NCBI RefSeq assembly: GCF_007860095.1
Contig: NZ_SJPT01000002.1
Coordinates: 806,001-870,000 of the forward strand
Direction of reading: 5' to 3'
Origin: Novipirellula galeiformis
Lineage (GTDB): Bacteria; Planctomycetota; Planctomycetia; Pirellulales; Pirellulaceae
DNA: 64,000 bases
Shown: positions 4,781-39,189 of the stretch, in pieces
Position numbering within the stretch: the stretch's first letter is position 1
Layout of the letters: each line of letters starts with the position of its first letter
Program-made: the position numbers and the translations under genes
Notes under the pieces: model-generated
Databases searched by the model: none
Told to the model about the DNA's origin: nothing
What the model saw: only the letters and a program-made list of their open reading frames with translations

Positions 4781-5004
4781 TGTTAGTGATCCATGTCAAA
4801 CTTGTTTGTCGATTGCGATGGCTGGTCCGGCAGAGTGTGGATGGCAGCAATCCGCTGACGCGAGTGGTGACACCAAGTGTACACCCCCAGACAACGGCAC
4901 GCACACGCGGGCCTGATCGAATGAGCACATTGTTTTCGCACCACGGGTGGGTAACCCAGCGCGGTGGCGATGCCGTGATACAATACCGACCATTGCTATT
5001 GGAT

Positions 5005-5045
5005 TTGCGAAATTCCATTCGCGTTGTCGAGCATTGAATTCGCAA
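5005..5045. repeat. Inverted repeat in the divergent intergenic region
   Basis: TTGCGAAATTC at 5005-5015 is matched by GAATTCGCAA at 5036-5045 (10 pairs, one bulged base, 20-bp spacer). It lies 30 bp upstream of the GTG start at 5076, in the gap between divergent genes, so it could be an operator or a leader hairpin. No regulator is nearby. Confidence 0.4.
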
Positions 5046-5075
5046 TCGTCCCTCCACCCCGCTGAATTCCACGCT

Positions 5076-8576: not shown

Positions 8577-9695
8577 TTATTGCATTTTTCGTTCGGGGCT
8601 GGGGCGTGGTTCGCGGTGCTTGGCGACGAGTTTGACGACGAGGTTGGCGATCAACTTCAAGGCGCGGTTGTTCCGCTTGCCGGTGATTTTTTGTCGGGGG
8701 CACATCGCGGACGTTTTCATCCGCTGGACGGACAATTGTATGTGTCCGGAATGTCCGGATGGGGATCGTACACTCGCGACGATGGATGCTTCCAACGCGT
8801 TCGTTATACAGGTGACGCCATTCAAGTCCCCGTCGGCTTCCATACTCATGAAAACGGCATTCGCATCACGTTTGCTGCCCCCCTCGACGCCTCCATCGCC
8901 GGTGATCGGACTCGCCATTTTGCTCAATGTTGGAACTACCGTTACAGCGGCGGGTATGGTTCCCCAGAGTATTCGAGCACGCATCGGGGAACGCCGGGGC
9001 ACGATCCGCTGCGGATTCAATCTGCCCACGTCTTGGACGATGGCCATTCGCTATTTCTGGAAATACCGGACCTGCAACCGGTCAATCAATTGCACCTGCG
9101 AATGCACGTCAATAAAGAGGAGTCGTTTTCTTGCAATCCCGCGGGCAGCGGCCATGACATGTTCGTGACCGTCCATCGACTCGACATCCCATTCACCGAG
9201 TTTGCAGGTTACCAACCGCGAGAAAAGCAAATCGCGGTCCACCCGCTGCTCGTCGACTTGGCATCGATGGCCGATCGCACGCCTAATCCGTGGCACAGAA
9301 AAATTGCCGGTTCCCGCGAGATCCAAATCGAAACGGGCAGCAATCTCAGCTACACCACCGGCCAATTCACCGTCAGAGCGAATGAAGCAGTGGCGTTAAC
9401 GCTATCGAATCCCGATGTCGTTCCTCACAACTGGGTACTCGTGCAACGTGGAGCGTTACAGCACGTCGGTGAGCTTGGCAATCAGATGATCGCAAATCCG
9501 CAGGCCTTCGCTCAGCAATACATCCCCGACTCGGACCAGGTCCTAGCTCACACCGACATCGTTGCCCCAGGGCAGGAACAGACGATTTACTTCGTCGCGC
9601 CGGCCACGCCCGGTCGCTATCCTTTCCTTTGCACCTTTCCCGGTCACTGGATGGTTATGAACGGAGTGATGGTGGTTACCGAGGAAGGATCCTGA
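8577..9695 (+). pseudogene. C-terminal part of the interrupted multidomain protein, with cupredoxin domain
   Basis: These 372 codons are in the same frame as the gene upstream and complete its propeller (RGRFHPLDGQLYVSGMSGW is typical of the C-terminal propeller blade in this family). They end in a cupredoxin domain at about 9340-9690, with the type 1 copper ligands PHNW (His) and FLCTFPGHWMVM (Cys, His, Met) as in azurin or auracyanin. The first possible re-start is a TTG at 8580 with no ribosome binding site, and the fragment has no signal peptide, so on its own it would not be exported. The likely reading is a recent nonsense mutation, a sequencing error, or readthrough. A shift in frame is ruled out because both halves share one frame. 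Confidence 0.75.
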
Positions 9696-18491: not shown

Positions 18492-18989
18492 GTTGCTGAG
18501 TTCTGGGGGGGTCAATTGGAAACCCGCGAAGGTGGTAAACGCACCTTTGCGCGGTGTGGCTTGGAGCGTCGCTGTGACGCCCGACACTTGATGCCCAACG
18601 GCATCGTATCGCTAAGACTCTCCTTCCTCTCCAATGAGAGCTAGCTTTCTAACGTATACGAATGTTTTGTAAGGCAGGGCCTCGCTTGGACGTGGCCCCC
18701 CTCGAAACGAGGGGGTGTTCCGGGGGGTGTGATTAGCGCGGTTATCAGTCTTATACTCTGTTTTTTCGTTTTCGAAGCTAATATACATCCGATCGCCGCT
18801 CAATTCCTTTTGTGGGTTAGGAAGCTTGCGTAGACTATAGGGTATAACATCGGCGTGTAGACTCATCGCTTGGGTTTTGCCTGCGGCCGTTGCTTTCCAA
18901 CCGGACTGCTGGCCCGACGTCACCGACCTTGTTGTTTGCTTATCTCTGTCTTCCCTCATCCCGCAAACCTATTTGTTTTGCACTCCTCC

Positions 18990-21900
18990 GTGATCCAATC
19001 GATTCACCCTCTATCCCGCTTGCGCTTCTCGTGTTGTGGTCTTGCCACACGCATCGGGTCGACGCGTGAATATTGGCAACCAAGACTTCCGTGTTGGCGA
19101 CGGGTGACGGGGCTATTGCTACTCGCATTATCGATTGTTGCCGATTCGGGTACTGAGGTGATCGGCCAGGGGCCAGGCGCCGAACCCCCGCGCGAGATCC
19201 TGCAATCGGGTAGTGAATCGGTCGACCCCGGCAACGGCAGTCCGCTGCGGGTCAAGGGATTTTTGTTTTTGGACAATTCGGGCGTGCCCGTCTTGATGCC
19301 AGGAACCTCCTTTGAAGAGATCGAACGATTACAAAATCTGGAAGCCGGAGTCGACGCCCGCAGCCAAGTTTTCGACTTTCAATCGCTCGAGATCACGGGA
19401 TCCGCTTCGCAAACTCGGGCGGAACTTCGCATTGTGATCCGTTTAACGATTGATTCGACCGCGGGGCGGACCGTGGCGATTCCATTGCGAATGCGAAACT
19501 TTTTCCCGTTAGGGCCTCCCGACGTCAGCGGACTTGATGAATTTCGCATGACCGTCTCGGGCAACGAGTCGGGACATTTGTTGATGGTCAAGACGAATCG
19601 TCGACGTGAAGCGGTGATCACAATGAATGTGGCGGCACGCGTCGATCCAGGCCCGACGCATGCCTTGCAATTCCAACTTCCTGATGTGCCTTCGCTGGTG
19701 CGCATTACCACCGATGACGAACAAGTGACCGGCGAGATTGTCGGCCGTGGCGATGAGGTGATGCAAACCAAACGCGAGTCGGGGCGTCCTGCTCAATTCG
19801 TGATTGAAAGTGGCGGAGGCACGTTTTCGTTGCGTTGGGGAAAACGCGATCGAGCAACGGATGGATCACCGCTGTTGGAAATCGATAACAGCCGGATCGT
19901 GGTCCAATGGGACTCACCTCAAGACCAACCCATTGCCGCGTGCCAAATGATCATTCGAAGTGTGCGTGGCAGCATCAACACGCTTCAGGTTCGATTGCCC
20001 GAGAATGCAGTATTGTTGGACATGCCGACCTTAGGCCCGAATGCACAATCGGTCGAACTGGTCAGCCCCACGTCGCCGGCCAGTTCCCCGAGCAATGGGG
20101 AAGGAGCACTGTTAGACATAGTCATCCCTGAGCAAGAACGTCAGCAGCGGATTGACTTGAATTTTGACATTCAGTTTTCTGCGAGTGATCCCAACGCAGC
20201 GACTCCACTCAGTTTCCGCGCGCCCGAGGTCATCGGAGCGCTGCGGCAACGGGGAGAGATCCAAATTTCGACCGGCGACGACTACCGATTGCGATGGCGG
20301 TCACGTCCATGGGTACAAAGCATTTTGGGACAACCGACCGACGAGACCGGTCGATCGTATTTGTTTCGTTATGATCGCGCGTCGTTTGATTTACCAATTT
20401 GGTTGGCAACGACACGTCGACAATTGAGGCTTTCCACCGAGTCGGAGATTTCGCTTCACGACTCGATCGCTCGGATTAAGTATCGCATCGTTTCCAGTGG
20501 ACGTGCCGCTGAAGGAACGATGCTGAAAATTGACATGGGGTCGTGGCGTTTGCGTTCGATCGAGAACGAAGACACCTCGCAACAAATCGAGTCTGGGCTC
20601 AATGGCAAGCACCATGAAATCTATCTCGAATCGGTGGCCAACGGTGATCCCTCTCCCATTCGGATTGTGGCCGAACACGATTTGCCACTGGTGCCCAAAG
20701 ATGGGGCGTTGACCGGCGGTGCCGCTCAAGAAGACATCGTGTTCGAATTGCCCCACATCACCGATATCGAAGACACGATGTTGGTTCAAGCCTCTACAGT
20801 CTCGGTTGCCAACCAAGGACGATTGTCGTTCGTCGTCGACTTGGAAGGTTCGCAAAACATCGATCGCGTGATCAACGCCGACACTCCCGCGACCGTGGAA
20901 ACGCCTCGTTCGCATTACCGCGTCATCCCGCCCGACGCAGCAAGTAAGTTGATCGGACGGATCGTTCAGCAATCGCCCACGATTTCGCTAGCGGGTGACG
21001 CGTCGATCGAAGTCGAAGGACGGAGTCTCCGTGCAACACTCGATTGGATCGTAAATTCATCGCTTGATCTGGAAGGCCGATTACCGATCCAAATCCCAGC
21101 GCAAGGCCCTATCGCGTCCGCCGCCTCCAAGCCCGCCGCTGCGTCCGCTCGGGCGACTAACGCAACCGAGAAATCGGGTGCGGGAGATCCGTCGACGAAC
21201 GAGGATCTGCCGGACGACTCCGCCGACGCCCAGACAAACTCAGCGAGTCTTCCTAGCGACTGGACCGTCACAGTTAACAATCGCCCCGCAGTCTTGGAAT
21301 CGCGAGGCGATGATCGTTATGAATTGATCTCCGATCAACTATCGAGTGGCTCGATGGCGATTCGTTGGAAGTTGCTGCGGCCGCTGAACGCCCCCACCTC
21401 CGACAACCAGATCGAAACGGTATCCATTCCCCGCCCGTTTGCGGTCGACACGACGTTCCGAGGAACGATGCGAGTGCTGCTGCAAGGCGACGCGGCCACC
21501 GAAATCCTGGCGGCCGACGCCATCGGTCATTACGGGAATAGCGTCGAGGGAGACCCCGAAGCGGAGGAAACGGGGCCACCACCGTCGTCGAATCGTGGCC
21601 TCGACAAATCCACCATGATTCTCGATGCATTGCCTCGCGAACCGCTACGATTGCGAGTTCGCGCCCGACAAACCGCAACTGAAAATATATTCGTCTCACG
21701 CGCTGTCCTGAGAACGGCGGTGGGGTATGCCACACGCATGGAACAATTGCTTGCCAGCGTCGAAGGGAGTCAAGAACTTCGCCTGGGATTGCCGCCGGGT
21801 GACTACTCGATTTCGACCGAAGCATTCGTGGATGGCAATTTCGTCACCGTTCGTCGTGAAACCAATGCGTTGTTAATCGCGTTGCCTGACGATGGTGAGT

Positions 21901-22613
21901 CGCACTTGGTTGATTTACGAGTCTGGTTGCCGCTCGATGCGTCCATGATGGCCGAGGCGATTACGCCCGCCTTGGAGCTACCGATTCGCGTAGGTCGCGT
22001 CTATTGGGAAATTGCCGCGCCTCAAGATTCGCATGTGATTTGGGCGTCACCGACGCTCGGTCGGTCGATGGCGTGGCGATTTGATCGCTGGCGACTGTAT
22101 CGTGAATCAACTCAAAATTCACGTTCGTTAGCAAGCTGGGTGGGCGGTCATGATCTGATCGAAGTCCCTAGAGGAAACCGGTACTTGTACGTGGGTGCGG
22201 ACGTAAAATCGTTTCACGCCGTGGTCGTATCACGCACCATTCTATGGGGCGTGACCGGATCGATCGTTTTGTTCATTGCGGTTTTACTATCGTTCGTACC
22301 GCAAACCCGCCATCCTTTGTTTGCGGTTACCGCGGGGGTCTTGTTTTCCGGGATGTTGGTAATCGCCCCTGATGCCGCCGTGTTGGCTGGACAACTCGGC
22401 ATGATCGCGCTGGTGCTCGTGATTGTGATGTCCGCCATCCGCACCATGGTGCAGTCGCGTGAACACCCTAGCGCACTCGATTCACGGCACCGATCACGTC
22501 GGATCGATAACTCGACTCAAATGCACAAGGACAGTTCCGGAGCCAGTCGCGGCACGCTTTCGGCAACCCGCTCGTTGGCCCATGCATCGAGTGTGAACAA
22601 GGTGACGCCGTGA
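18990..22613 (+). CDS. Large exported protein with C-terminal membrane segments, unknown function (first gene of pair)
   Basis: The frame is open from 18870. I take GTG 18990 as the most plausible start (1207 residues), with low certainty. A signal-anchor lies about 38-55 residues in (RVTGLLLLALSIVADSG). The bulk, about residues 75-1070, is rich in beta-strand-like alternation with many short hydrophobic runs and an Ala/Ser/Asp-rich linker near 720-755. No known domain is recognised. Three hydrophobic helices follow at about 1078-1155 (e.g. TILWGVTGSIVLFIAVLLSF), then a basic cytoplasmic-like tail (SRHRSRR, then Ser-rich). The layout suggests a large periplasmic body anchored in the inner membrane. 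Its last four bases overlap the start of the next gene, so the two are almost surely translated together. Codon use looks like that of the neighbours, so I see no sign of recent transfer. Confidence 0.75.
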   Translation: MIQSIHPLSRLRFSCCGLATRIGSTREYWQPRLPCWRRVTGLLLLALSIVADSGTEVIGQGPGAEPPREILQSGSESVDPGNGSPLRVKGFLFLDNSGVPVLMPGTSFEEIERLQNLEAGVDARSQVFDFQSLEITGSASQTRAELRIVIRLTIDSTAGRTVAIPLRMRNFFPLGPPDVSGLDEFRMTVSGNESGHLLMVKTNRRREAVITMNVAARVDPGPTHALQFQLPDVPSLVRITTDDEQVTGEIVGRGDEVMQTKRESGRPAQFVIESGGGTFSLRWGKRDRATDGSPLLEIDNSRIVVQWDSPQDQPIAACQMIIRSVRGSINTLQVRLPENAVLLDMPTLGPNAQSVELVSPTSPASSPSNGEGALLDIVIPEQERQQRIDLNFDIQFSASDPNAATPLSFRAPEVIGALRQRGEIQISTGDDYRLRWRSRPWVQSILGQPTDETGRSYLFRYDRASFDLPIWLATTRRQLRLSTESEISLHDSIARIKYRIVSSGRAAEGTMLKIDMGSWRLRSIENEDTSQQIESGLNGKHHEIYLESVANGDPSPIRIVAEHDLPLVPKDGALTGGAAQEDIVFELPHITDIEDTMLVQASTVSVANQGRLSFVVDLEGSQNIDRVINADTPATVETPRSHYRVIPPDAASKLIGRIVQQSPTISLAGDASIEVEGRSLRATLDWIVNSSLDLEGRLPIQIPAQGPIASAASKPAAASARATNATEKSGAGDPSTNEDLPDDSADAQTNSASLPSDWTVTVNNRPAVLESRGDDRYELISDQLSSGSMAIRWKLLRPLNAPTSDNQIETVSIPRPFAVDTTFRGTMRVLLQGDAATEILAADAIGHYGNSVEGDPEAEETGPPPSSNRGLDKSTMILDALPREPLRLRVRARQTATENIFVSRAVLRTAVGYATRMEQLLASVEGSQELRLGLPPGDYSISTEAFVDGNFVTVRRETNALLIALPDDGESHLVDLRVWLPLDASMMAEAITPALELPIRVGRVYWEIAAPQDSHVIWASPTLGRSMAWRFDRWRLYRESTQNSRSLASWVGGHDLIEVPRGNRYLYVGADVKSFHAVVVSRTILWGVTGSIVLFIAVLLSFVPQTRHPLFAVTAGVLFSGMLVIAPDAAVLAGQLGMIALVLVIVMSAIRTMVQSREHPSALDSRHRSRRIDNSTQMHKDSSGASRGTLSATRSLAHASSVNKVTP

Positions 22614-25600
22614 TTCAGATCGTTCGCCACGCTTTCTTTGCCTGCATCCTGGTTGGCGTTGGGGTCGGGGCGGCGTCCTTGCCGTGCGTTGCCCAAGAAT
22701 CGACCTCCACCGAGCAACCGCCAACGGCGGAGCCAGCCGGCGATGGTGAAAGCCCGATCACAGGCGAGGTGAGCGAGACCAGCGAGACCAGCGAGACCAG
22801 CGAGACCAGCGAGGGCGCGTCGAATGAAGGCGCCTCGAATGAAGGCGAGACCAAAGCGGGCGAGGCTAGCGACGGTGAACCGAGTGACGCCGAACTTAAC
22901 ACGGAGCAGACCGACCCGGAAACGGGGCAATCGCCCTCCCGCACTAACGATGATGGAAAACCGCCTCAGCCCGAGACCGCAACGTCGCAATCGGATAACA
23001 TGGCATCGTCCGCCCCCGAAGGCGACGCAGCGGAAGATTCGATGGACGAGAGCGTTTCTGAGACACCCTCACCGGAACCGACACCGTCTCCATCGGCCCC
23101 CGCTCCCCCGCTCGTCCGTGACAACCCTTTGGCGGTGCTTCCCGACCAGTTACCCGATGGAACTCGGTTGAGACCCATCGCGTTATTCCATTCTCAATTG
23201 ACCGAATTGGTCCCCGAGAATTTCCAGCCCATTTCGATTTTGCGGCTCAAGGATGCAATCGATTTGGCAACCAGCATGGTGCCTGACGAAAATGCCAGCC
23301 GGGTTCGACACGCGTTGTATGTCATCGAATTGGTTGATGACACGTTGATCAGTGAGCGGTCGGTGCTTGACATCCAATGTGACACGAAAGACACCGTCCA
23401 TCGCAACCTTGGGAAGGTCAACTTAGCAATAAACTCGTCCTCACGCGGTGGCAACCTTGTTAATAGCCCCTCGATACCTCGACTTGAATCGCTCGCCGAT
23501 GGCAATTTGGTTGCGGTGGTCAATGGTGACACCTCGCTTGCGTTTGCGTGGACGTTAAAGAGTGAAACCCCGGGCTTGGTCAAGCAATTCGATTTACGGC
23601 TGCCACCCTCACCACAGACGCGAATCGTACTACAAGTCCCCAAGGGGATCTCGGTTGAATCGCTTGACGGCGTTGTCCGCTTGTCACCGAGCCCTCCGCC
23701 TGAGCTCGAAGTGCGGGCGTTGGGCGTCGACGCCCGTTACTACCTGATCGACGCTGGTGGGTTATCGCGTGTGCGTTTGAAGACGACACGCGAAGGATCA
23801 CGTGACGATCCACACGAATTGTTGGTTCGCAACCAATACACCCAATATTCGATCGACGCAACTCGCGTGGTCTGGTCTCACCAAGCGATCTTACAACTTC
23901 AGGTACCCGATCGGTTGCCGTCGATGGTGATTGGCAACAGCACGATCACGTCGATCGAAGTCAATGCGATCGACACGCCATTCAACTCGACATTGATTGG
24001 CGACGGTGTCTATCGCATCGACATCAATGTCCCCACCGGCTCGCTGCCACAATCCGATTCACCGACGTCGTTGACGATCAAAGGGCAAGCGGTATGGCGG
24101 GACGCTGATGGATGGTGCGATCTGCCTCAGCCCCAATTTCTAGTCGGCGGACTGGTTGTATCAGAAGTCACGAGCAAGGTTGAGTTAAAGACGACCGATC
24201 CATTGCGCGTGATCGAGTGGAAATTGCCCGACGGTTGGGCGATGTCGAGGGAAACGACCGAAAGCGAAGAGACCAAACAAATCTCGGCCTCCGGTCCTCC
24301 GGTGACACTGGACGATTCGGTCATCAGCCATTACAGCTCCGTCAATGCAACAGACGCTGGCGGATCGAGCGAGCAAACGCAGCCCAGTTCCGATCGTGAT
24401 CCGGCAGCTACAACGGACATCAAACCCCCAGTCTGGTCGCGTGTCCGCATCGCTCGTGAGTCGCCCCTTCGCGATGCTTCGACCGTCATCAACCTTTCTT
24501 TGGCCGATGGAATCATCACGGCAACGTCACAATTGCGAGTGCGGTTGGATCCACGGCGTGTGGAACCAATCAAGATTGAATTGCAACGGGGTTGGACGCT
24601 GCAATCGATCAACCTACTCGTATCTGGACGAGTGATCGAAACGCCTTCGATTAACCCGACAACTTCCCAATTCACCATTTGGCCTGAAGCGACGGATGTC
24701 TCGGATTCTGAGTTACTGATCCAAGCCGTTGGACAATCACGAATCATACAAGCCGATCCGCAGATCATCGTTCCGCAAAGTTGGTTTCTGCGATTTGTGG
24801 ATGTCCAAGGTGAATTTCTAGCTGCGGTGACACCTCCGGGCAATCTCGATTGGTCGAGCCAGATGTCGTTATTGAGCCAGCGAATCAAACGTGCCGACAT
24901 CGCTGAACGATTTCAAGAGTTTTTTGCTTCGGCAACGAAGAACGCGATGTTTCTGCGTTGTGTGACCGGGCGCACGCCCGCACTCGTGTTGCAACCACCG
25001 AGCGTCGCATTCGATGTCGCAACGACATTGGTATATCGGCTCGTCGGTGAGGAAGTTTTCGAGGACTTGATCATCGAGATGTCGGCCACGAGTCCATCGC
25101 CGCAAACCATCACCGCGCAAACGGGGCCCGATCTTGATCGTCCTGCATTCACATGGAGCCTTCGACAATCCGATGGCCGCGCCGCGGTCAGTTTACCCGT
25201 CTCGAACGTCTCGCTTGACAAGCCTGACTCGGACGGTGTCTATACCATCGACGTTTCTCAGTGGAATTTACGTGGACAACGCTTGGTTGGACGCCGCCAC
25301 TATTCAATTCAGAACGACCTCTCGGTTCGTCTACCGGTCGTCCCCAATGCCACGTCCCAAACAGCCGAAGTGTTGATCGGCGAGGGATTGAGTGTCAAAC
25401 ACGGTCATGATTCCGTATTGCGAGTTTCCGTTGATGCGAATGTTCGACTGGCCGAGTTGCTCGAAGGACGTCGCGACAACGACGCCGCAGTGACCCCGCC
25501 AAGCGACGCCTCCGGTGCCGCTAAAACGGACTCCCCAGCCGGTGACCCCGCATCGCGATCGTCGACACAAGCGGACTTTGTCAAAACGAAATTGCGCTAC

Positions 25601-28600
25601 GATGCCGTCGATCAACCCTCGTTGGTGATCACTAAAAACGCCGCGAATCCCAACGTCAATATCGTTTGGGACCAAGAGGTAACCCTGGTTGCCTCGAGTC
25701 ACGGTACCGATCGCATCGAAGCGATGCTGGATGTGACGGCGTCTAAACCGCTCGAAATTGATTATGATCATGACTTGAGACTGATTTCAGTCGAGCAAGA
25801 TGGAACGCTGTTGGATTCCATCGATCTCCATCGGCGCCCACTTTTGATCGGAGCGACCAAACCGATCAAGAAACAACGGATCCGTTTGGTTTGGAGCCGA
25901 CAACAGTTTCATCGCAATTGGTGGCGAGATTGCACCATTCCGCTCATTGAGCTCTCCGGCGTTGTGATGCGATCGCATTATCAAGTCCGCGCTTCGTCGG
26001 ATTCCTTTCTGCCGGGAATTCTCTGGGCTAGCTCACCGACAACCGCAACACGTTGGACGTTGCCGATCCAACCCGGTGGCAACGTGCTGTTGGTTCGTCG
26101 CAACAATGCGTTGGCCTTCGGATGGTTGACCGCAATCTTGGTGTTCGCATTGTGTTGGTGGATTGCACGTCGATCCCTTTACCTGTGCGCAATGATTGTC
26201 ATTTTGTTGGCCACGCTCGCGAGCGTGTGGTGGCCATGGCATTCGATCACCATTGGATGGTTTTTGGTTCCTTCGCTGATGGGAGCATTGTTAGTCAGCA
26301 CGCTCCGTTGGAAGGACCGCGTCGAGCAACGAGGTGAGCGGTTGCGATCACAACACGAGGCGGACAGTCAAGCCGAGATGGCCGCGGAGGACTCGACGGA
26401 GTTTTCGGTGTCGACACCGGTCGGCGGCATGATACTTTTTGCGTTTTTGAGTTTGTCGGTGACCACCACCTCGGCTCAGGAAGCCGCGTCGCCTCCGCTG
26501 GATGCAAAGCCAGCTCCTCCCCCCGCTGCGGTTGAACGTCCCACGCCAGCGGTCGACTTGTTAGTTCCCGTGGACATCGATGGCCATGTGGTCGGCGACA
26601 AGCTCTATATTCCCCGAGAACTAAAATCCTCGCTCTTGGCGATGTCATCACGATTGGCACCGGAGGAGGCTCGTTTTCAAATCGCTAACTACCGCCTACG
26701 GATTGAATCAAGTGAGGAATCGCTTCGCCCGGGCGTGTTGCTGCTCGACGCTGATTACATCATCCACACCGACCGCCCAACCGATCGTGTTCGCTTGCCA
26801 TTCACTCCCGCAGTGATTCGCCGAATCGAACTAGTCCAAGATGACCAAGACCGCATTGTTCAGTTTGTGGCAAACTCGACCACCGATGTCATCGCCAACG
26901 TACCTTTGGGGGATCGATTTCGAATGCGCGTCACGCTGATCCCCGAATTGGTGATCGCTGAAAATTTCGACAACAAAGGGCAATTGAATATCCAACTGCC
27001 TCCGATTGCAGCGTCACGTTTGACGGTTGAAGGCAGCGGTAAGCTAGAGCGAGTGCGCATCGGCGGGGTCACCGGACAAGTCGTCTCACAACGTCAATTG
27101 CAAATTTGGACCGCGGACATTGGCCCAATAAAAAAACTGGCCATCGAGTTTGAATTCAACAAAGGCAACGCGGCAACGCCCACGACATCGCAACCACTGC
27201 GACGACGCTACTGGCTTCACGCGGGCAAGTTGCAAACCATCGTCGAATGCCAAGTCGAGCCCGCCTATCCCGTCTCCTCCGGCGATACGGTGTCGCTATT
27301 GCTACGCGATTCGTTGCTCCCGACCGTGGTTTCGAGCTCGTGGGAGATTCGCCAAACTGATTTATTGAGCCCCACCCGCCGTCAAGTCACCTTGGCGGCA
27401 CTGCTCGATGCGCCTGGACCGATACAATTGCTGTGGACATTGCCTTCGCGAGTCAGCAACGCCAACGCGGTGGAGGATGCGATAGCGATGGTCATTCCCG
27501 ATGTCGCCCCCACAGCAGCCGGTGATAGTGAACCTGCGTGGGTCGGAATCAATAGTGACCCTGGAATCCGCGTCCAGCCCATCACGCGTGAACCGCTCGA
27601 CGCGTTGACGGACGATCAATTTCTCGCCGTTTGGTCGGGATATCGTGGCAATAAACCAGATCGTACTTTCGTCGCCTTTGGCCAGCTCCCTTCGTTTCAA
27701 TTGGTGCAAATCCCCGATCCACCGCCCACCATCGCGCAAACGCATCAAGTCCATATTGCGGTCGATGCACTCGAAATTCGCTATCGCGCTGAGATCACGA
27801 ATCACGGCAAGCGGCCACGGCGGTGGATCCTAAAGCTGCCCACGGGAGTATCGTTGCGTCAATTACTCGTCGATGGGCAACCTCTTCAATCGCGACCACT
27901 GGTTTCAAAAAACTTTACGGAAGTGATGCTTGGCGATCTCTCCGACCCCGCAACCACCGTGGTCGAAGCCATCGCAGTCTCTAACCTACCCTCCAACGGA
28001 AAGTTCACCCTTCCCCGACTCACGCTGAACCCAAGCTCCGCGACGACGGATCGCTACTTCGTCACACGTGACCAATCACTCGACGTTCGGTTCGCCTCCC
28101 AAGCCCCCCAAGAGTTCACCGAACGCGTCACGGTCGGCGACCTCGATCATTTGGCCAAGGGCTGGGTGCCGATCGTGGGTTATCAGTTCGATTCAAGCAT
28201 CGTGGGTGATGCGATGCAACTACCTAAATTGGTGTTGCGATCGTCACTTCGTCCAACACGCTTCGATGCAAATCAATTGATCGCGTTGTCGTGGAGCGAC
28301 GGTCGTTGGACCATGCAATCACTGACTCGTTTCGCCCCCGGAAAACTTCCTGATTTCATTGACATTCAAGTACCAACTCGATGGTGTGAATCACTGGAGG
28401 TCAGTTCGGCGGTGCGATGGTCACGGCAACCGGCGAACGATGTTTCCACCCAATTGATTCGCGTCTCGTGTGATGAGCAGGTGCGTGAGAGTCGTGTGAT
28501 TTCGATCAGCGGGACACTAGCGTCAGCAGACAAATCTCGCGTCAGCGTTCCTTCGATTCAAATTCTCGGTGAAGGGCGTCGCTCGGTTCACGTTTCCGTA

Positions 28601-30016
28601 CCAAGCCGTTTAACGAACGAGCCGATTCGATGGCGTTCAAGTTCCGTTCGGGCCGCAGAATTACCCGCATTCTGGTCGACGGTGACCCCTTCGACGAATC
28701 TGGATTTGCTCAGCCCACGAGCAACGTATGCGGTCGCGGCGAGTGGTTGGTCGATCGAATTGGCGCCGCTTCAGCAACAAAACCGGACCGCCATCGTGCT
28801 GGCCGCGGAGACGCGTGTGTTCCCCGGGCACGAACGAATCGTGGTGATGTCCCGATTTGATTTGATCCCCGGTGCGCTTGACGACGTCGAACTTGCCTTA
28901 CCCCAAGACGCAACCTGTTTGGGCGCATGGACGGCAAACCAAGCCGTCAACCCAATGACCGTCGGCGCGCAGGAAACTTCGCAAGCGACGCCCGATAACC
29001 CCTCAGCGAACAACGTCGTACGTTTACCTCTCTCGCTAAGCCGACTCGCCCAAAGTGTCGAAGTCTTGTTTGAACTACCGTTGTCGCGGGCCCATCGAGG
29101 TGACTACGCGGCCCGAATGCTGGCCATTCCTGTTTCGGAAGCGTGGGTTTCGACTTATGCCTTGTCCGATTCGCCTGACACCAATGATCCAAGCACGCCG
29201 GCGGGGGTCAAAAACAAGCCCATCGGCAATGCAAGCGATCCCCATTGGACGCGTGATGAAAAGCGAACACAGATGATCCAGCGACGCGGATTGTCGCTGG
29301 CCGCTTCGATCGTGCAAATGATCAATGATTCCAGCGACATTCTCGCCGAGCGTCCGACTGCCGAGTCGACCACTTGGATTCGGCCGATGATTGCACGATA
29401 TGAGGATTTAGCTGCCGAAGCCGGGCATCCGGTTCAGTGGGGGGTGGCGTCTCAGGCGGCGATCCCTCCCAACCCCGAATCGGGATCCAACTCCGATGCC
29501 CCCCGTCCCTCAGGTCCTCAACCGCCAATCGTTGGAACGGAGGCATCACCTCGCTCAGTCGTTTCCAACCCTCCATCACTAGAGACGCTGAGCTGGGAGC
29601 AGCTCAATGCAAAAATGGAAGTTCACGTCAAACGATATTCGAGTCCTTCGGACGATGTTGCGTTCTTATTCTCCAATCGTGCGAATTTGAAGGGTTACAA
29701 GGTACAACAGATTGAGCAGATTGATTCGCAATTGGACTTAGCCTCGATCACGCTTGACGCCCCTACCGATACCGATTTGCGTACGATCATCACGAATTCC
29801 ATCTCCTTGCTTTGCGGCATGGCGGTGATTGTGTTGCTGTGGCCGCTAAGACGTTACTTTGACGCCATGACGTCGCATCCCGCGTTTTGGTTAGCATTGG
29901 TAGCGATCTGTGGTTTCTTTGTGGCACCGATTCCCGTAGCCGCCAGCTTATTGTTGGTCGCGATTTCGTTACCAGCGTTTCCCAGCGACGGCTTCAAACG
30001 TCATCGCTCGCGATAG
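22610..30016 (+). CDS. Giant 2468-residue exported membrane protein, unknown function (second gene of pair)
   Basis: It starts at GTG 22610, overlapping the previous stop by GTGA. A signal peptide (residues about 4-27, HAFFACILVGVGVGAASLPCVAQ) leads into an acidic, Ser/Thr/Glu-rich low-complexity region (about 30-165). Body 1 (about 170-1150) is predicted beta-rich. Three or more hydrophobic helices follow at about 1165-1235 (ALAFGWLTAILVFALCWWIA and two more), then a charged stretch, then a further hydrophobic segment that looks like a second signal (ILFAFLSLSVTTTSAQE, about 1277-1293). Body 2 (about 1300-2390) follows, and two or three helices close the protein at about 2394-2460. It thus reads as two copies of the layout seen once in the preceding gene. 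No enzyme motif is visible. The role is unknown: an envelope structural or transport-scaffold function is only a guess. Confidence 0.8.
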   Translation: MIQIVRHAFFACILVGVGVGAASLPCVAQESTSTEQPPTAEPAGDGESPITGEVSETSETSETSETSEGASNEGASNEGETKAGEASDGEPSDAELNTEQTDPETGQSPSRTNDDGKPPQPETATSQSDNMASSAPEGDAAEDSMDESVSETPSPEPTPSPSAPAPPLVRDNPLAVLPDQLPDGTRLRPIALFHSQLTELVPENFQPISILRLKDAIDLATSMVPDENASRVRHALYVIELVDDTLISERSVLDIQCDTKDTVHRNLGKVNLAINSSSRGGNLVNSPSIPRLESLADGNLVAVVNGDTSLAFAWTLKSETPGLVKQFDLRLPPSPQTRIVLQVPKGISVESLDGVVRLSPSPPPELEVRALGVDARYYLIDAGGLSRVRLKTTREGSRDDPHELLVRNQYTQYSIDATRVVWSHQAILQLQVPDRLPSMVIGNSTITSIEVNAIDTPFNSTLIGDGVYRIDINVPTGSLPQSDSPTSLTIKGQAVWRDADGWCDLPQPQFLVGGLVVSEVTSKVELKTTDPLRVIEWKLPDGWAMSRETTESEETKQISASGPPVTLDDSVISHYSSVNATDAGGSSEQTQPSSDRDPAATTDIKPPVWSRVRIARESPLRDASTVINLSLADGIITATSQLRVRLDPRRVEPIKIELQRGWTLQSINLLVSGRVIETPSINPTTSQFTIWPEATDVSDSELLIQAVGQSRIIQADPQIIVPQSWFLRFVDVQGEFLAAVTPPGNLDWSSQMSLLSQRIKRADIAERFQEFFASATKNAMFLRCVTGRTPALVLQPPSVAFDVATTLVYRLVGEEVFEDLIIEMSATSPSPQTITAQTGPDLDRPAFTWSLRQSDGRAAVSLPVSNVSLDKPDSDGVYTIDVSQWNLRGQRLVGRRHYSIQNDLSVRLPVVPNATSQTAEVLIGEGLSVKHGHDSVLRVSVDANVRLAELLEGRRDNDAAVTPPSDASGAAKTDSPAGDPASRSSTQADFVKTKLRYDAVDQPSLVITKNAANPNVNIVWDQEVTLVASSHGTDRIEAMLDVTASKPLEIDYDHDLRLISVEQDGTLLDSIDLHRRPLLIGATKPIKKQRIRLVWSRQQFHRNWWRDCTIPLIELSGVVMRSHYQVRASSDSFLPGILWASSPTTATRWTLPIQPGGNVLLVRRNNALAFGWLTAILVFALCWWIARRSLYLCAMIVILLATLASVWWPWHSITIGWFLVPSLMGALLVSTLRWKDRVEQRGERLRSQHEADSQAEMAAEDSTEFSVSTPVGGMILFAFLSLSVTTTSAQEAASPPLDAKPAPPPAAVERPTPAVDLLVPVDIDGHVVGDKLYIPRELKSSLLAMSSRLAPEEARFQIANYRLRIESSEESLRPGVLLLDADYIIHTDRPTDRVRLPFTPAVIRRIELVQDDQDRIVQFVANSTTDVIANVPLGDRFRMRVTLIPELVIAENFDNKGQLNIQLPPIAASRLTVEGSGKLERVRIGGVTGQVVSQRQLQIWTADIGPIKKLAIEFEFNKGNAATPTTSQPLRRRYWLHAGKLQTIVECQVEPAYPVSSGDTVSLLLRDSLLPTVVSSSWEIRQTDLLSPTRRQVTLAALLDAPGPIQLLWTLPSRVSNANAVEDAIAMVIPDVAPTAAGDSEPAWVGINSDPGIRVQPITREPLDALTDDQFLAVWSGYRGNKPDRTFVAFGQLPSFQLVQIPDPPPTIAQTHQVHIAVDALEIRYRAEITNHGKRPRRWILKLPTGVSLRQLLVDGQPLQSRPLVSKNFTEVMLGDLSDPATTVVEAIAVSNLPSNGKFTLPRLTLNPSSATTDRYFVTRDQSLDVRFASQAPQEFTERVTVGDLDHLAKGWVPIVGYQFDSSIVGDAMQLPKLVLRSSLRPTRFDANQLIALSWSDGRWTMQSLTRFAPGKLPDFIDIQVPTRWCESLEVSSAVRWSRQPANDVSTQLIRVSCDEQVRESRVISISGTLASADKSRVSVPSIQILGEGRRSVHVSVPSRLTNEPIRWRSSSVRAAELPAFWSTVTPSTNLDLLSPRATYAVAASGWSIELAPLQQQNRTAIVLAAETRVFPGHERIVVMSRFDLIPGALDDVELALPQDATCLGAWTANQAVNPMTVGAQETSQATPDNPSANNVVRLPLSLSRLAQSVEVLFELPLSRAHRGDYAARMLAIPVSEAWVSTYALSDSPDTNDPSTPAGVKNKPIGNASDPHWTRDEKRTQMIQRRGLSLAASIVQMINDSSDILAERPTAESTTWIRPMIARYEDLAAEAGHPVQWGVASQAAIPPNPESGSNSDAPRPSGPQPPIVGTEASPRSVVSNPPSLETLSWEQLNAKMEVHVKRYSSPSDDVAFLFSNRANLKGYKVQQIEQIDSQLDLASITLDAPTDTDLRTIITNSISLLCGMAVIVLLWPLRRYFDAMTSHPAFWLALVAICGFFVAPIPVAASLLLVAISLPAFPSDGFKRHRSR
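22772..22807 (+). repeat. In-frame 9-bp repeat encoding (SET)4
   Basis: Four tandem copies of AGCGAGACC encode Ser-Glu-Thr repeats in the acidic linker of the giant protein. A 15-bp repeat (GAAGGCGCCTCGAAT-like) follows directly. Both periods are multiples of three, so copy-number change keeps the frame. Confidence 0.9.
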
Positions 30017-33619: not shown

Positions 33620-36600
33620 CTAGCGAGCATCCGGTCGCGTTGCGATCCTCGCCTGATCAAGCTCGCTTAGCGACAGCGCGATCCATCCTTCACGCAATTC
33701 GAGTTGGCTAATCGCCAAACTTTCGCTGGCGGGATGCATCGCCAACACATCGCTCGTCAAAGGCAAACCACGATTCGGCGAGAGCACCTTGGTGAAGATC
33801 GCTCGAATGGGCAAACGTTCTCGCATCGACAGATTCGGTCCACTGATGCTCAAGTGCCCGTCCCGGACCAACGTCGCCTTTAACCCATCAACCTTGGGCA
33901 CGTAGCTCGCCCGCACGATAAAGCGGCGCAGATCAAGCATCTCGCCACGCGTTAATTTTACGACGCGAAGCGTCAGCCATAACTTACCGTTCTCGATCTC
34001 AACGGTAATCGGCCGCGTCTTGGCGAATTGAATCATTACATCGTCAGGAATGTCCTCAGGAATCGCCGATGCTTGCTGGCCGAACAATACCATTCCCTCT
34101 TGGATCATATCGACGATCCGGCGTGGTTGATCCCTGGGAACCAATTGTTCTAACGTATTGTTCATCGATGACTGATGCACTTGCACACTCATCAAACTGT
34201 TGCGAAGAGCGCGCGGGCGTGGTGTGAACGCGCCGAGTTGCCAATCGCCAGCCAACCGATAGCGGGCGAGCAAACGGTCATTTGTCGTCTGCATGTCGGC
34301 CACTTGTGGATCAAGTTTAAGCGCCCCCAACGGGCCGAGGACCAACTTCGACAAACTACGCGCCGAATCATTGATTTGTTTATCGACTCGTTGATCGATT
34401 TCGCCGCCCACTTGGCTACGCACTTTTTCAATGGAGATTTGGTTCGACAAAGGCTCAAGCGACTCGTAGCGAGTCGTTGCGAGACTACGTACAAGGGTCC
34501 CAATCAAGGGCCAACTGTCGTAATCAGTCGCGATCCCTTGGAGTTGATTTCTGCCATTAACGTCGACCCATGAATCACCAAGCTGAACGCCATCGGGTGT
34601 AATTTCGATTGGCGTGGAGGCGAGGAAATCACTGTCACCAGCGGTTCGCAAGGCGACGGGCCCGCTGTGTCCGATCGATCGAGTTTTCACATTACCCAAC
34701 GTACGGAGGTCAATCTGCCAATGGTTTGGCGAGGGCAGTAACGCAATGCTTAGGTTACTTTTGACATGGCTGATTCCTCGTACTTGACTTCCCAACACCT
34801 GGGTGCGAATCGGAACCGATTGAGGCGCGATGGTAGGCAACATCCGTTGCAACATCGATTGGCTAATCGCCAAACGTATATTGGCGTTGCGGTAGTGCGT
34901 GTCAATCGCCGAAGCAACCTTCACTGCGATCGGATTGTCCGAATGGCGAAGGGTCTGGACCGCTTCGGCAATCTCCAAAGAAACCGTGTCAATTTCATTT
35001 GACTCTTGGTGTTCAAGTTGATTCAGCAAGCTGGCGTAATCAACCGCCCCACGCGTCCAAGGACGAATAGCGATCGCAAGCTGCTCGATTTTGTCGCCAC
35101 GAAGCCATTCACGGTGATCGGGATGCAATCCATGCCATCGGAGACGCGCCAAGAACCGCTTGGCCAACATTGCACGATCCTCACGCGAGGCTCCCGTGGC
35201 GGCCGATTCAAGTGGATCTAACAACAAAAATCGATTCCAACCTTCGGCATCACCGGTTTCGCTAAGGATCGCTCGCACCTGGGCCACAAATTCACTCGCG
35301 TCCGCTTCGGTTGCCACGTGGTTTCGCGGCGCCAACATCTGGGTATCCCCGGTCTGGCTCAGTTGCCAAATCGGTTGCCAAACGGCCACGCGGCGCTCAA
35401 TGGCGTAGCAGGCATACAGAAAATGCATCTGCGTTTCACGCGTCACCATCGCCTCCGCAGTATCCTGACCCTGTCGGCGGAGTGTATCCAGCCGTTCGAT
35501 CAACGTTCCAGCGCGAGCGCCCCCAAGACGTGGCTCGGTTCGCAACTCAGCCAACGTTTGTTGAACTCGCTCGGACCAACTCGATAGCTCCGCGAGCTCC
35601 TGGAGTTGCGAGTTTGACTGCGTGCCAGGCTCGGCACGATAGGAGTTCACAAATTCATCGAGTCGGTCTAGTTGCCGATTAAGGCTGTTGGTCACGGGCC
35701 AACCCGCGGGGCTGAGCTGATGCGATCGACGAGTGGATTCGAATACCGAAGCGGCGTCGAACGATTCGCCTGCGTCGGCAGCCGAAGAAACGTCGGGGAT
35801 CATCTCAGACGCGACGCTCGACGCCTTTGGGTTCACTGTCGGACGAGGACTTATTTTCGCAAGGACAGCGATCGATTCCGGCAACACGGAAGCTCGCTTG
35901 CGGTCGCTTGCCCTTCGTTCGCCCAGCTCCGCTTGCACGGCCTCCGGCTGCACCGCAGCAATCGTATTAAGCGGAGATTGAATTTCGGGCAGAGGCGAAT
36001 AGTCGGCAACGCCATCGACGCTGGAGGGAGCGTCGAGGGAATCCGAAAGCGAGGCTGCGATCGCGCTATGGTGTCCCGCTAACTCTTGGTGCTCATCACG
36101 GATCGGAGCGATTAGGCGTCCCGGTTTCTCGGACGGCAGGGCGACTTTAATGTCGGCCTCTGTGGAAGCCTGAGCTTTAACCGTGCTGGGATTGAGCCGA
36201 TACTCGTCGCTCGCGACCGACTCGAGATCCATGTGATCCAGATCGATCACCAATTCATTATCCGATTCGCGCGGTGCCGCCTTCGCGATGTTCGATTCGC
36301 CGTAATGCGGGTTGCGGGCCTCCGTCAACAGGTCGCTTGGGGCATCGTGCTTCTCGGTTGAAGCGAGCTCTCGCTCAAGACGTAGCGGCATACGCATGCC
36401 CCGGACGCCGTATTCCGGCCGTTCGATCGCAGCGACTTCGGCGGGGGTGGGGGCGATTTGCGGATGCAAAACTTCAAAAGTTGACTCTAGACGCGTTTCG
36501 CGAGTCCGTTCTACCGCGGTCGCGTTCACCGACGACCGCCCTTGAATGTTCGCAGGCGACTGAAACGTGACCACTTGCGAATCCCAACTCGGTCGTTGCT

Positions 36601-36730
36601 GATCGTCTGCGGATGGTCCTAGGGACTCGAACCAACCTTGGTTCATTGTTCCGTGCCACGAAACCGCGACCATAACCAGAGAAGCCGTCAATGGCCATAA
36701 AACCAGTGATCTTTTAACGTCCTTGCGCAT
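33620..36730 (-). CDS. Large exported protein of unknown function with one N-terminal membrane segment
   Basis: ATG 36730 gives 1036 residues. A single hydrophobic segment at about residues 8-24 (SLVLWPLTASLVMVAVSW), preceded by basic residues MRKDVKR, suggests a signal-anchor with the rest outside the cytoplasm. Residues about 60-330 are low in hydrophobics and rich in Ser, Glu, Ala and Pro (a likely disordered stalk). The rest (about 340-1036) looks mixed helical and strand, with no motif I recognise. It may be a planctomycete-specific envelope protein. The neighbours, a Nudix gene (convergent) and the fucose genes (divergent), do not explain it. Confidence 0.75.
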   Translation of the reverse strand: MRKDVKRSLVLWPLTASLVMVAVSWHGTMNQGWFESLGPSADDQQRPSWDSQVVTFQSPANIQGRSSVNATAVERTRETRLESTFEVLHPQIAPTPAEVAAIERPEYGVRGMRMPLRLERELASTEKHDAPSDLLTEARNPHYGESNIAKAAPRESDNELVIDLDHMDLESVASDEYRLNPSTVKAQASTEADIKVALPSEKPGRLIAPIRDEHQELAGHHSAIAASLSDSLDAPSSVDGVADYSPLPEIQSPLNTIAAVQPEAVQAELGERRASDRKRASVLPESIAVLAKISPRPTVNPKASSVASEMIPDVSSAADAGESFDAASVFESTRRSHQLSPAGWPVTNSLNRQLDRLDEFVNSYRAEPGTQSNSQLQELAELSSWSERVQQTLAELRTEPRLGGARAGTLIERLDTLRRQGQDTAEAMVTRETQMHFLYACYAIERRVAVWQPIWQLSQTGDTQMLAPRNHVATEADASEFVAQVRAILSETGDAEGWNRFLLLDPLESAATGASREDRAMLAKRFLARLRWHGLHPDHREWLRGDKIEQLAIAIRPWTRGAVDYASLLNQLEHQESNEIDTVSLEIAEAVQTLRHSDNPIAVKVASAIDTHYRNANIRLAISQSMLQRMLPTIAPQSVPIRTQVLGSQVRGISHVKSNLSIALLPSPNHWQIDLRTLGNVKTRSIGHSGPVALRTAGDSDFLASTPIEITPDGVQLGDSWVDVNGRNQLQGIATDYDSWPLIGTLVRSLATTRYESLEPLSNQISIEKVRSQVGGEIDQRVDKQINDSARSLSKLVLGPLGALKLDPQVADMQTTNDRLLARYRLAGDWQLGAFTPRPRALRNSLMSVQVHQSSMNNTLEQLVPRDQPRRIVDMIQEGMVLFGQQASAIPEDIPDDVMIQFAKTRPITVEIENGKLWLTLRVVKLTRGEMLDLRRFIVRASYVPKVDGLKATLVRDGHLSISGPNLSMRERLPIRAIFTKVLSPNRGLPLTSDVLAMHPASESLAISQLELREGWIALSLSELDQARIATRPDAR

Positions 36731-37028: not shown

Positions 37029-37982
37029 ATGACTACACTCTCAGGAAAAATCTACGTCGCCGGCCATCGGGGCATGGTCGGTTCCGCGGTATGCCGTCGG
37101 TTGGCGGCTGCAGGTACCTGCGAGGTGCTGACGGCCAGTCGCGAGGCGCTGGATCTAACGCACCAAAGCTCAGTCGAAGATTTCTTTGCGGAAGAAAAAC
37201 CTGACACGGTCATTTTCGCTGCCGCTCGTGTGGGAGGTGTGCTTGCCAACGATACCTATCCCGTGGAATTCTTGGCCGATAACTTGCTGATGTCAACATT
37301 TGCAATCAATGCGGCTTATGCATCGGGGGTGAAACGCTTTTTGTTTCTCGGCAGCACCTGTATTTATCCTCGCGATTGCGCTCAACCCATCCAGGAGAAC
37401 GCTCTGCTGAGCGGTCCGCTAGAAAAGACAAACGAAGCCTACGCGCTGGCTAAAATAGCGGGCTTGAAATTGTGCCAATATTATCGTCGCCAACACGGCG
37501 TGATGTTTCACAGCGCGATGCCCACCAACCTGTACGGCCCCGGCGACAATTACCATCCCCAACATAGCCACGTATTGCCCGCATTACTGCGGCGATTCCA
37601 CGAGGCAAAAATCGCGGGCTCGCCGAGCGTTACAATCTGGGGCACGGGGACGCCACGTCGCGAATTCCTTTTCGTTGACGACCTGGCCGATGCATTGCTA
37701 TTTCTGCTGGGACAAGACAATCCACCGGACTGGGTCAACCTAGGAACGGGCATCGACCTTTCGATTCTTGAACTCGCCCAACTTGTCGCCAAGACGGTCG
37801 GCTATGAAGGCGCCGTCAAGACCGACCCCGAAAAACCAGATGGCACCCCGATTAAATGCAGTGACGTATCGCTGTTGCACCGCATGGGATGGAAACACAA
37901 GGTCGAACTCACCCAGGGACTCCGAACCACGTATGATCACTTCCTGAGCGAAGTTGAATCGGGTGAAATCCGATCCGTTTGA
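37029..37982 (+). CDS. fcl: GDP-L-fucose synthase
   Basis: A 317-residue short-chain dehydrogenase/reductase. It has the nucleotide-binding GHRGMVGSA at about residue 13, the GSTCIYP motif with the catalytic Ser/Cys region near residue 107, and the Y-x3-K pair in YALAKIAG near residue 137. These are diagnostic of GDP-4-keto-6-deoxy-mannose epimerase/reductase, which makes GDP-L-fucose with NADPH. It is followed after 172 bp by gmd, which makes its substrate, so the two form a pathway unit: GDP-mannose to GDP-4-keto-6-deoxymannose to GDP-L-fucose. Fucose is used in cell-surface polysaccharide or glycoprotein. No glycosyltransferase is adjacent, so the end product is not shown here. Confidence 0.92.
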
Positions 37983-38154
37983 TGCGTTGTTCAAAGATCC
38001 TTGAACGATCGACAAGGCAACATCGTTTCGCTGGGCCCGCGTTTTTATGGCAATCACGCTGCCCAAAACGTTCCTCACAGTTCATTTCTTCGTTCACTGT
38101 CTACCCTCTTTATCTTCCCCCTTTCGCAATCTCCCCTAAACAACCGACATTGAC

Positions 38155-39189
38155 ATGGCAAACAGCACCCCGACGCCGAAAAGTGCATTAATCACCGGGA
38201 TCACCGGCCAAGACGGCAGCTATCTGGCTGAACTGCTGCTTGAGAAAGGCTACACCGTCCATGGACTCGTTCGCCGCAGCAGCACGTTTTCGACCGAACG
38301 CATCGAGCACATCTATAAAGACATTCACGAAAACTCAAGGCTCCGCCTGCATTACGGCGACCTAACGGACGGCCAAGCGTTGACGAACTTGGTACTCGAA
38401 ATTGAGCCCGACGAAATCTACAACCTGGGCGCGCAAAGCCACGTTCGCGTCTCATTTGATCAACCGGTTTACACTTTGCAAACCGTCGGCGTCGGCGCTC
38501 TGAACGTTCTCGAAGCGGCACGCTTGCTGAACAAAAAGAAGTCGGTTCGCGTCTACCAAGCCAGCAGTAGTGAAATGTACGGCGATGTCATGCAAACGCC
38601 GCAAACCGAACTGACGCCGTTTAACCCTCAGTCGCCCTACGCGTGTGCCAAGGTGTTCGCGTTCCACCAGACGGTGAACTATCGCGAAAGCTACGACATG
38701 TTTGCCAGCAACGGGATCTTGTTCAACCATGAATCCGAGCGTCGCGGAGAAACCTTTGTAACGAGAAAAATCACGCGTGCAGCCGGACGGATCAAAGTCG
38801 GGATGCAGAAAAAACTGTACCTCGGGAATCTCGATGCCAAACGTGACTGGGGCTACGCAAAAGACTATGTCGAAGGCATGTGGCGGATCCTTCAGCACGA
38901 CGAGCCCGATGATTTCGTGCTTGCCACCGGACGAACCGAAACCGTGCGCGACTTTGCGAAACTCGTGTTTCAACAACTCGACCTAAACTACGAAGACTTC
39001 GTTGAGATCGATCCACGCTACTTCCGCCCTGCCGAAGTGGAACTATTGCTTGGTGACCCGAGCAAAGCCAAAGAGAAACTCGGCTGGGAAGCAACGACGA
39101 ACCTTGAAGAACTCGCACGCATCATGACCGAGCACGATCTTGAACTGGCGAAGCGTGAAGCCCACGCGAACAGCTTCGTACCAAGCTAG
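38155..39189 (+). CDS. gmd: GDP-mannose 4,6-dehydratase
   Basis: A 344-residue extended SDR enzyme with the NADP-binding [19 protein letters not shown] near residue 16, the active-site region SSSEMYGD near residue 140, and Y-x3-K as YACAKVFAF near residue 162. [20 protein letters not shown] and [20 protein letters not shown] are strongly conserved in bacterial and plant GMD. It converts GDP-mannose to GDP-4-keto-6-deoxymannose with water release. Near-family length (about 340-370). It follows fcl on the same strand and is probably transcribed with it. The gap of 172 bp could hold a second promoter, but none is clear. Confidence 0.94.

Follow-up and report, generated by a model that had tools for sequence, protein, structure and literature searches.

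What do two overlapping giant genes of the planctomycete Novipirellula galeiformis encode, and what might their products do in the cell envelope? The genes form a pair of about 11 kb within a 64,000-nucleotide stretch of contig NZ_SJPT01000002.1 (positions 806,001 to 870,000), referred to here as the window, and an earlier note on this DNA had proposed, from a shared order of features, that they hold three related units, one in gene 1 and two in gene 2. We cut alignments of 17 orthologous gene pairs into unit A (gene 1) and units B and C (the two halves of gene 2), and full-length hhalign comparisons among these profiles gave E values of 2.6e-33, 1.3e-26 and 7.4e-33. With signals and helices excluded, the bodies alone gave E values of 2.4e-28 (A–B), 9e-24 (A–C) and 2.8e-30 (B–C) in alignments colinear across 828–852 columns, compared with 0.0023–0.35 for six reversed controls and 0.0016–0.52 for fifteen block-shuffled controls. 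A, B and C are three homologous units, as had been proposed, and all three pairs among them are mutually significant. Chance or composition as the source of this similarity is ruled out by the reversed and block-shuffled profiles and by reversed domains, and its confinement to signals or helices is ruled out since the bodies alone give the match.

Profile A5, built from 11 diverse gene-1 proteins and containing no gene-2 sequence, matches gene 2 twice, as in a 2850-amino-acid (aa) open reading frame (ORF) found at E values of 2.3e-136 and 4.2e-111, and of the 55 ORFs longer than 1900 aa that it recognizes, 45 are matched in both halves, the loci containing 71 ORFs of such length. Plain hidden Markov model searches also cross-match between units in divergent loci. 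The units are encoded by three consecutive separate genes, each matched by A5, in loci L214 (1128, 1237 and 1138 aa) and L123 (1202, 1419 and 1470 aa), and some distant lineages show two units only or a shortened second gene. Downstream of an A–BC set in locus L147, a further stretch at the edge of the sequence (L147:1-1458) matches the unit B and C profiles and is perhaps a fourth unit.

A conserved gene pair

Both ORFs and the 4-bp GTGA overlap described in the earlier note are confirmed (Table 1). That note began gene 1 at position 18990, where an in-frame GTG does stand, but the ORF extends upstream to a TTG at 18870; the true start is uncertain and likely to lie downstream of 18870, with candidates including GTG at 18990 and 19104. 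Both genes evolve under purifying selection, with a ratio of nonsynonymous to synonymous substitution rates (dN/dS) of about 0.1. Against the nearest complete relative, genome G002 (amino-acid identity 75% for gene 1 and 69% for gene 2), the ratio is 0.083 for gene 1 and 0.103 for gene 2, values that are approximate since dS, at about 2.2–2.3, is near saturation.

Searches were made within Planctomycetota and covered 60 related genomes as well as distant genomes of the phylum. Gene 1 of the window matches 42 of the 60 genomes, its own included; 13 of the 18 misses match when another member serves as query, and one of the last five matches with a profile, which brings gene 1 to 56 of the 60 related genomes in total, plus distant lineages. 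As a single query gene 2 matches 12 of the 60, a low count because it diverges faster, and the loci themselves show gene 2 behind gene 1. Downstream sequence of more than 2 kb is available for 58 gene-1 loci, a count that treats near relatives, and second copies within a genome, as separate loci. In 54 of them the next gene downstream on the same strand is a family member, so the pairing to which the earlier note drew attention is kept, and in 35 the downstream gene starts with the 4-bp overlap. In three exceptions (L130, L139 and L142) gene 1 is preceded rather than followed by a related long gene; in the fourth, L145, the ORF picker chose an opposite-strand frame, and a profile search does find a unit downstream (G177). 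Named relatives are represented by 12 loci of Rhodopirellula, Rubripirellula, Roseimaritima and two unclassified planctomycetes. Across the phylum, one Pirellulales protein matches 44 of 294 genomes and profile A5 matches 46 of 119; the five genomes of family f21 that were inspected hold two pairs each.

The pair looks undescribed, because literature searches, whose coverage stopped short of subscription journals and supplements, found no name or description for it, and Pfam and NCBIfam scans of both proteins gave no domain at curated cut-offs, bearing out the earlier note, which had recognized none. Weak Pfam matches among 17 gene-1 proteins, including TgpA_N in 1 (4.7e-05), DUF6251 in 2 (best 0.0083; below its cut-off in the window protein), DUF5693 in 6 (best 0.021) and others weaker still, we take for helix similarity or chance. 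Gene 2 lies above the 5-kb threshold used for planctomycete 'giant genes' (PMC5177795), but those are a size class rather than a family, and the available sections of that paper name no such pair. The accessible portions of PMC5837995, PMC10632474 and PMC7226087 likewise contain no description of it.

Five beta domains per unit

Each unit contains five tandem beta domains. Self-comparison of the units gives repeat offsets of about 165–180 and about 335–350 columns, and AlphaFold2 models of A and C show chains of beta domains (A, predicted local distance difference test (pLDDT) 64.2, predicted template modelling score (pTM) 0.32, 12 sequences; C, pLDDT 56.4, pTM 0.29, 10 sequences). The borders placed by eye in A, given as domain starts in Table 1, map through the profiles onto C with a shift of at most about 5 residues from those placed there by eye. 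In a 15 × 15 matrix of domain comparisons, same-position pairs from different units average about 53 and other inter-unit pairs about 28 (averaged by hand), against 15.0, with a maximum of 25.4, for reversed controls. The simplest history would be that the five-domain unit came first and was then copied twice.

The fold predicted for these domains is a beta-sandwich like that of the N-terminal domain of M1 aminopeptidases (M1-N) and of ribophorin I. For model A, VIA-align ranks ribophorin I/Ost1 first (6ezn_A, Z 14.0, 307 aligned, root-mean-square deviation (rmsd) 12.5 across two domains); leukotriene A4 hydrolase (6enb_A) reaches Z 13.2 over model residues 210-391 (165 aligned, rmsd 3.1), and other M1 aminopeptidases and TAF2 score just below it. 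For model C the top match is again ribophorin I/Ost1 (6s7o_E, Z 9.9, 376 aligned, rmsd 31.1), and the list includes 3chp (Z 9.1, 153 aligned, rmsd 4.6) and the M61 structure 8j9c_A (Z 9.0, 144 aligned, rmsd 3.5); few rows of either list reach beyond one or two domains per model. In these models of modest confidence, one A domain (Z about 11–13, rmsd mostly 3–4) and one C domain (Z 8–9) may share the fold of the M1-N domain (PF17900), leukotriene A4 hydrolase, TAF2 and M61. Weak profile similarity to M1-N appears in other domains: against a planctomycete M1-N profile, B2 scores 36.7, A3 and B3 32.5 each, the fifth domain of A and C3 26, and the remaining ten domains at most 23, with reversed controls reaching 20.5. 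Comparisons with an M1-N profile gave probabilities of 10% for A, 27% for B and 2% for C. Shared ancestry with M1 domains is no more than suggested.

A profile search of the PDB found no sequence relative (best E 0.042) and no Ost1 chain up to E 5. PF17900 is absent from Pfam scans of 17 gene-1 proteins and gene 2, and the Ribophorin family is not among the Pfam matches of the same proteins up to E 10, a range in which HMMER filters drop most matches above 0.1. Unlike M1 aminopeptidases, the units have no catalytic domain and array their domains in tandem, and neither protein contains an HExxH zinc motif. The likeness to ribophorin I/Ost1, drawn from models of modest confidence, would lie in exported tandem beta domains of such a fold with a membrane anchor. 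Ost1, however, combines a single transmembrane (TM) helix with two luminal beta domains that resemble each other (PMC7226087), whereas each of the three units here has five domains and a helix bundle, with no sequence match. The most conserved positions of the giant proteins are chiefly proline, glycine, tryptophan, hydrophobic or aromatic, and the few conserved polar ones are R61, T308 and Q460 in gene 1 and D1915 in gene 2. We rejected an enzyme as the identity of these proteins, because their most conserved positions include no obvious catalytic set and HExxH is absent.

Predicted membrane layout and the putative internal signal of gene 2

The layout given in the earlier note, signal, body and helices once in gene 1 and twice in gene 2, stands as an order of parts. 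In gene 1, however, the signal-like hydrophobic region (about residues 80-92 of the window protein) falls under the hydropathy threshold used, and the C-terminal helices that follow a body of about 1000 aa, three in the structure model, appear as two hydropathy peaks and not three. Gene 2 runs from signal through body and three hydrophobic segments to a second signal-like segment (about residues 1274-1289), a further body and closing helices (about residues 2392-2456). Most of 16 further gene pairs share the general layout; at the threshold used, some miss a peak. Gene-1 tails are net positive in 49 of 60 family members, as is the loop before the internal signal of gene 2 in 30 of 48 proteins, and the stretch after that signal is net positive in 9 of 48.

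A signal-peptidase-like motif follows the segment between B and C in 41 of 48 gene-2 proteins. The same motif follows 64 of 78 N-terminal signals and 55 of 386 other membrane segments, an enrichment with a Fisher p of 1e-23, uncorrected for shared ancestry. Gene 2 probably encodes a polyprotein, predicted to be cut into B and C by signal peptidase, because of this cleavable-looking internal signal and because other genomes carry the units as separate genes.

Table 1. Features of the giant gene pair, in window coordinates
Feature	Position	Strand	Basis
Gene 1 (unit A)	18870..22613	+	ORF, 1247 aa counted from upstream-most TTG
Unit A beta domain 1 (aa 165-330; border by eye)	19362..19859	+	AlphaFold2 model, profile mapping, domain matrix
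Unit A beta domain 2 (aa 331-515)	19860..20414	+	Best single-domain structural match to M1 aminopeptidase N-terminal domain
Unit A beta domain 3 (aa 516-700)	20415..20969	+	Model, profile mapping, domain matrix
Unit A beta domain 4 (aa 701-930; low-confidence insert)	20970..21659	+	Model, profile mapping, domain matrix
Unit A beta domain 5 (aa 931-1108; end of low confidence)	21660..22193	+	Model, profile mapping, domain matrix
Unit A C-terminal helix bundle, predicted (aa 1112-1195)	22203..22454	+	AlphaFold2 model helices
GTGA start/stop overlap, gene 1/gene 2	22610..22613	+	Overlap context reads ACGCC-GTGA
Gene 2 (units B + C)	22610..30016	+	ORF, 2468 aa, GTG start
Unit B body, five domains (borders about aa 223, 400, 618, 797, 1008)	23276..26071	+	Profile mapping from A and C; matrix
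Unit B hydrophobic segments (peaks aa 1167, 1189, 1213)	26108..26305	+	Hydropathy
Internal signal-peptide-like segment, predicted cut between TTTSA and QEA, before Q1290	26393..26476	+	Signal-peptidase-like site
Unit C body, five domains (borders about aa 1351, 1522, 1704, 1881, 2055)	26660..29254	+	AlphaFold2 model, mapping, matrix
Unit C C-terminal helix bundle, predicted (aa 2392-2456)	29783..29977	+	Hydropathy and AlphaFold2 model

Possible role and neighbouring genes

How might these parts work together? In the arrangement that we tentatively favour, with a little less than even confidence, the pair encodes a three-rod complex of the inner membrane. In each unit, a Sec-type signal would precede five beta-sandwich domains strung in tandem into a rod in the periplasm, and helices at the C terminus would form a bundle in the inner membrane. 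Gene 2 would be translated as one chain, the internal signal re-exporting it after the unit B helices, and a signal peptidase cut at that signal would release B and C. The start/stop overlap would couple A to B + C, from which we infer a stoichiometric A–B–C assembly that reaches into the periplasm from an anchor in the inner membrane. A beta-sandwich measures about 4 nm, and five would give rods near 20 nm. Because no catalytic residues stand out, the role would be mechanical or binding, as an envelope scaffold or tether, and in that functional sense the pair may be the system that the earlier note had in mind. In some lineages the complex might be read out by a neighbouring extracytoplasmic function (ECF) sigma factor and a single-TM periplasmic VWA/YfbK protein.

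Several observations weigh against this reading. The cleavage motif was defined after the sequences had been viewed, and its count ignores ancestry. Confidence in both AlphaFold2 models is modest, and plain Foldseek lists integrins first for each of them. Support from the M1-N profile is weak (best probability 69%, with 12 of the 15 domains below 12%), and A2 (17.3) and C4 (16.4), the best structural matches to M1-N, score at control level against it. Higher scores for same-position domains hold only on average, B2–C3 (60) exceeding B2–C2 (47) and A2–B4 (53) exceeding A2–B2 (51), and profile A5 matches 10 of the 55 long ORFs in one half only. Four of the 60 relatives have no match and 73 of the 119 phylum genomes none to A5, so the family is either dispensable somewhere or was missed. 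Finally, the neighbours vary by lineage, and the window pair has no adjacent inositol monophosphatase (IMPase) or VWA gene.

The best-placed competitor, which we consider rather unlikely, makes the rods the sensing part of an ECF sigma/VWA anti-sigma pathway for envelope stress, the pair serving mainly in signalling and not as a scaffold. It draws on the divergent loci, L113-L147 and L205-L224. Of 55 such loci examined, 54 gave a match and 48 include an upstream gene; in 7 of these 48, from seven genomes (L132, L207, L216, L217, L218, L222 and L223), a gene with VWA and YfbK_C lies directly upstream. Where the start of this gene is covered (L207, L217 and L223), the protein has a short N-terminal part, with its one TM helix at about residue 104-119, and the preceding gene is of the sigma-70 type (ECF); zf-HC2 scores in L223 only and the usual HxxxCxxC motif is in none of the three, so that the 'anti-sigma' label derives partly from position and layout. 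In L207 and L223 the order is ECF sigma, TM VWA/YfbK, A and gene 2 on one strand (gene 2 being partly matched in L207), in L217 it is sigma, VWA and one two-unit giant gene, and in L146 a sigma-70-type (ECF) gene and a zf-HC2/VIT/VWA gene adjoin the pair. Adjacency by chance is unlikely, because the seven VWA-linked genomes hold just one or two YfbK_C genes each, in a census of 20 genomes of which eight were chosen for VWA linkage. The genome of the window also has an ECF sigma and TM-VWA/YfbK pair (L225:5872-9304, contig C22): its single YfbK_C gene found has an ECF-type sigma gene upstream, and the protein shows an N-terminal part, a TM helix near residue 107 and a weaker peak near 614. This gene lies on another contig than the giant pair, however, and the YfbK/VWA proteins (PF12034) and ECF sigma factors fall outside the giant family. 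No ECF/VWA cluster occurs among those neighbours of Pirellulales loci that were scanned, and three units of about 1000 aa seem large for a sensor only. A combined picture, in which a widespread planctomycete envelope machine of three homologous five-domain rods, two of them freed from one polyprotein through its internal signal peptide, sits at the inner membrane and is monitored by an ECF sigma factor through a VWA anti-sigma, we hold to be doubtful to a similar degree.

In the Bat system, whose operon encodes a MoxR ATPase, the VWA proteins BatA/B and BatD, a membrane protein with a VWA domain is likewise teamed with a beta-rich exported partner that has a C-terminal TM segment. The giant units are far larger and comprise three homologous copies, and general Pfam scans of gene-1 homologues and gene 2, with no search dedicated to it, gave no BatD.

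A trans-envelope carrier, with rods spanning the periplasm to move lipid or polymer between membranes, strikes us as improbable. A TolC-like OEP lies at most two genes away in L114 and L123 (and, by similarity, in L224), MlaE occurs in L121 and PqiA in L132, and each of the neighbour clusterings places an ABC ATPase, MlaF-like by eye, in three loci (ABC_tran in L121). Yet such genes are scattered, form no repeated operon and are counted without a base rate, and the predicted tandem globular beta-sandwiches do not amount to a continuous groove. A step less probable again is a helper resembling ribophorin I: as has been proposed for Ost1, the rods would keep chains that are exported or glycosylated close to the translocon. 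That Ost1 heads the VIA-align list for both units, and itself joins similar luminal domains to a membrane helix, favours this idea; against it, the neighbours scanned include no oligosaccharyltransferase domain, the PDB profile search yielded no Ost1 chain, and proteins of one fold need not have one function. A surface adhesin or other surface protein, the kind said to form most giant genes, is just as improbable, since an inner-membrane location is suggested by the alpha-helical bundles at the C termini and by tails that are mostly positive, and order-wide conservation would be unlike that of variable adhesins.

Other genes accompany the pair in parts of the family. In 17 of the 62 loci where a gene 1 was called, every one of the 17 from Pirellulales or f21, an IMPase gene lies directly upstream on the same strand, -86 to 587 bases away, and PF00459 is found in the seven members scanned; it does not adjoin the window pair and is at most a candidate functional partner. 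A family of about 220–310 aa accompanies the pair at 15 loci (one being L066:5183-6025), lying on the opposite strand in 13 of them, with a conserved LEKGV motif, a C terminus that is often PLT and no Pfam match in two members scanned. A gene judged GNAT-like by sequence follows the pair in six loci.

Within the window, the nearest recognized genes encode an M28 peptidase and a tRNA nucleotidyltransferase. A 1036-aa protein with a hydrophobic stretch at its N terminus and no Pfam match is encoded at 33620-36730 (−), and a relative (L052) has a gene of comparable size (1079 aa) in a like place, placement and size being what was compared. Two adjacent genes at 37029-39189 (+) carry NAD-epimerase and GDP-mannose 4,6-dehydratase domains, as for GDP-fucose synthesis. 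Further away lie a 1209-aa protein with LamG-like and DUF6797 domains (4947-8576, +), directly followed by a cupredoxin-like gene (8580-9695), and a gene for an AcrB-type efflux pump (58609-61941, +).

An essentiality screen in Planctopirus limnophila lists 108 essential phylum-specific proteins of unknown function (PMC10632474). An 11-kb pair that is held by almost all of the related genomes and by distant lineages, and that has no family name, likely serves something basic in the unusual planctomycete envelope. If the three-rod inner-membrane complex that we tentatively favour is right, its anatomy would imply that a bacterial polyprotein carries an internal signal, that three parts join in one complex and, perhaps, that there is a link to ECF signalling.
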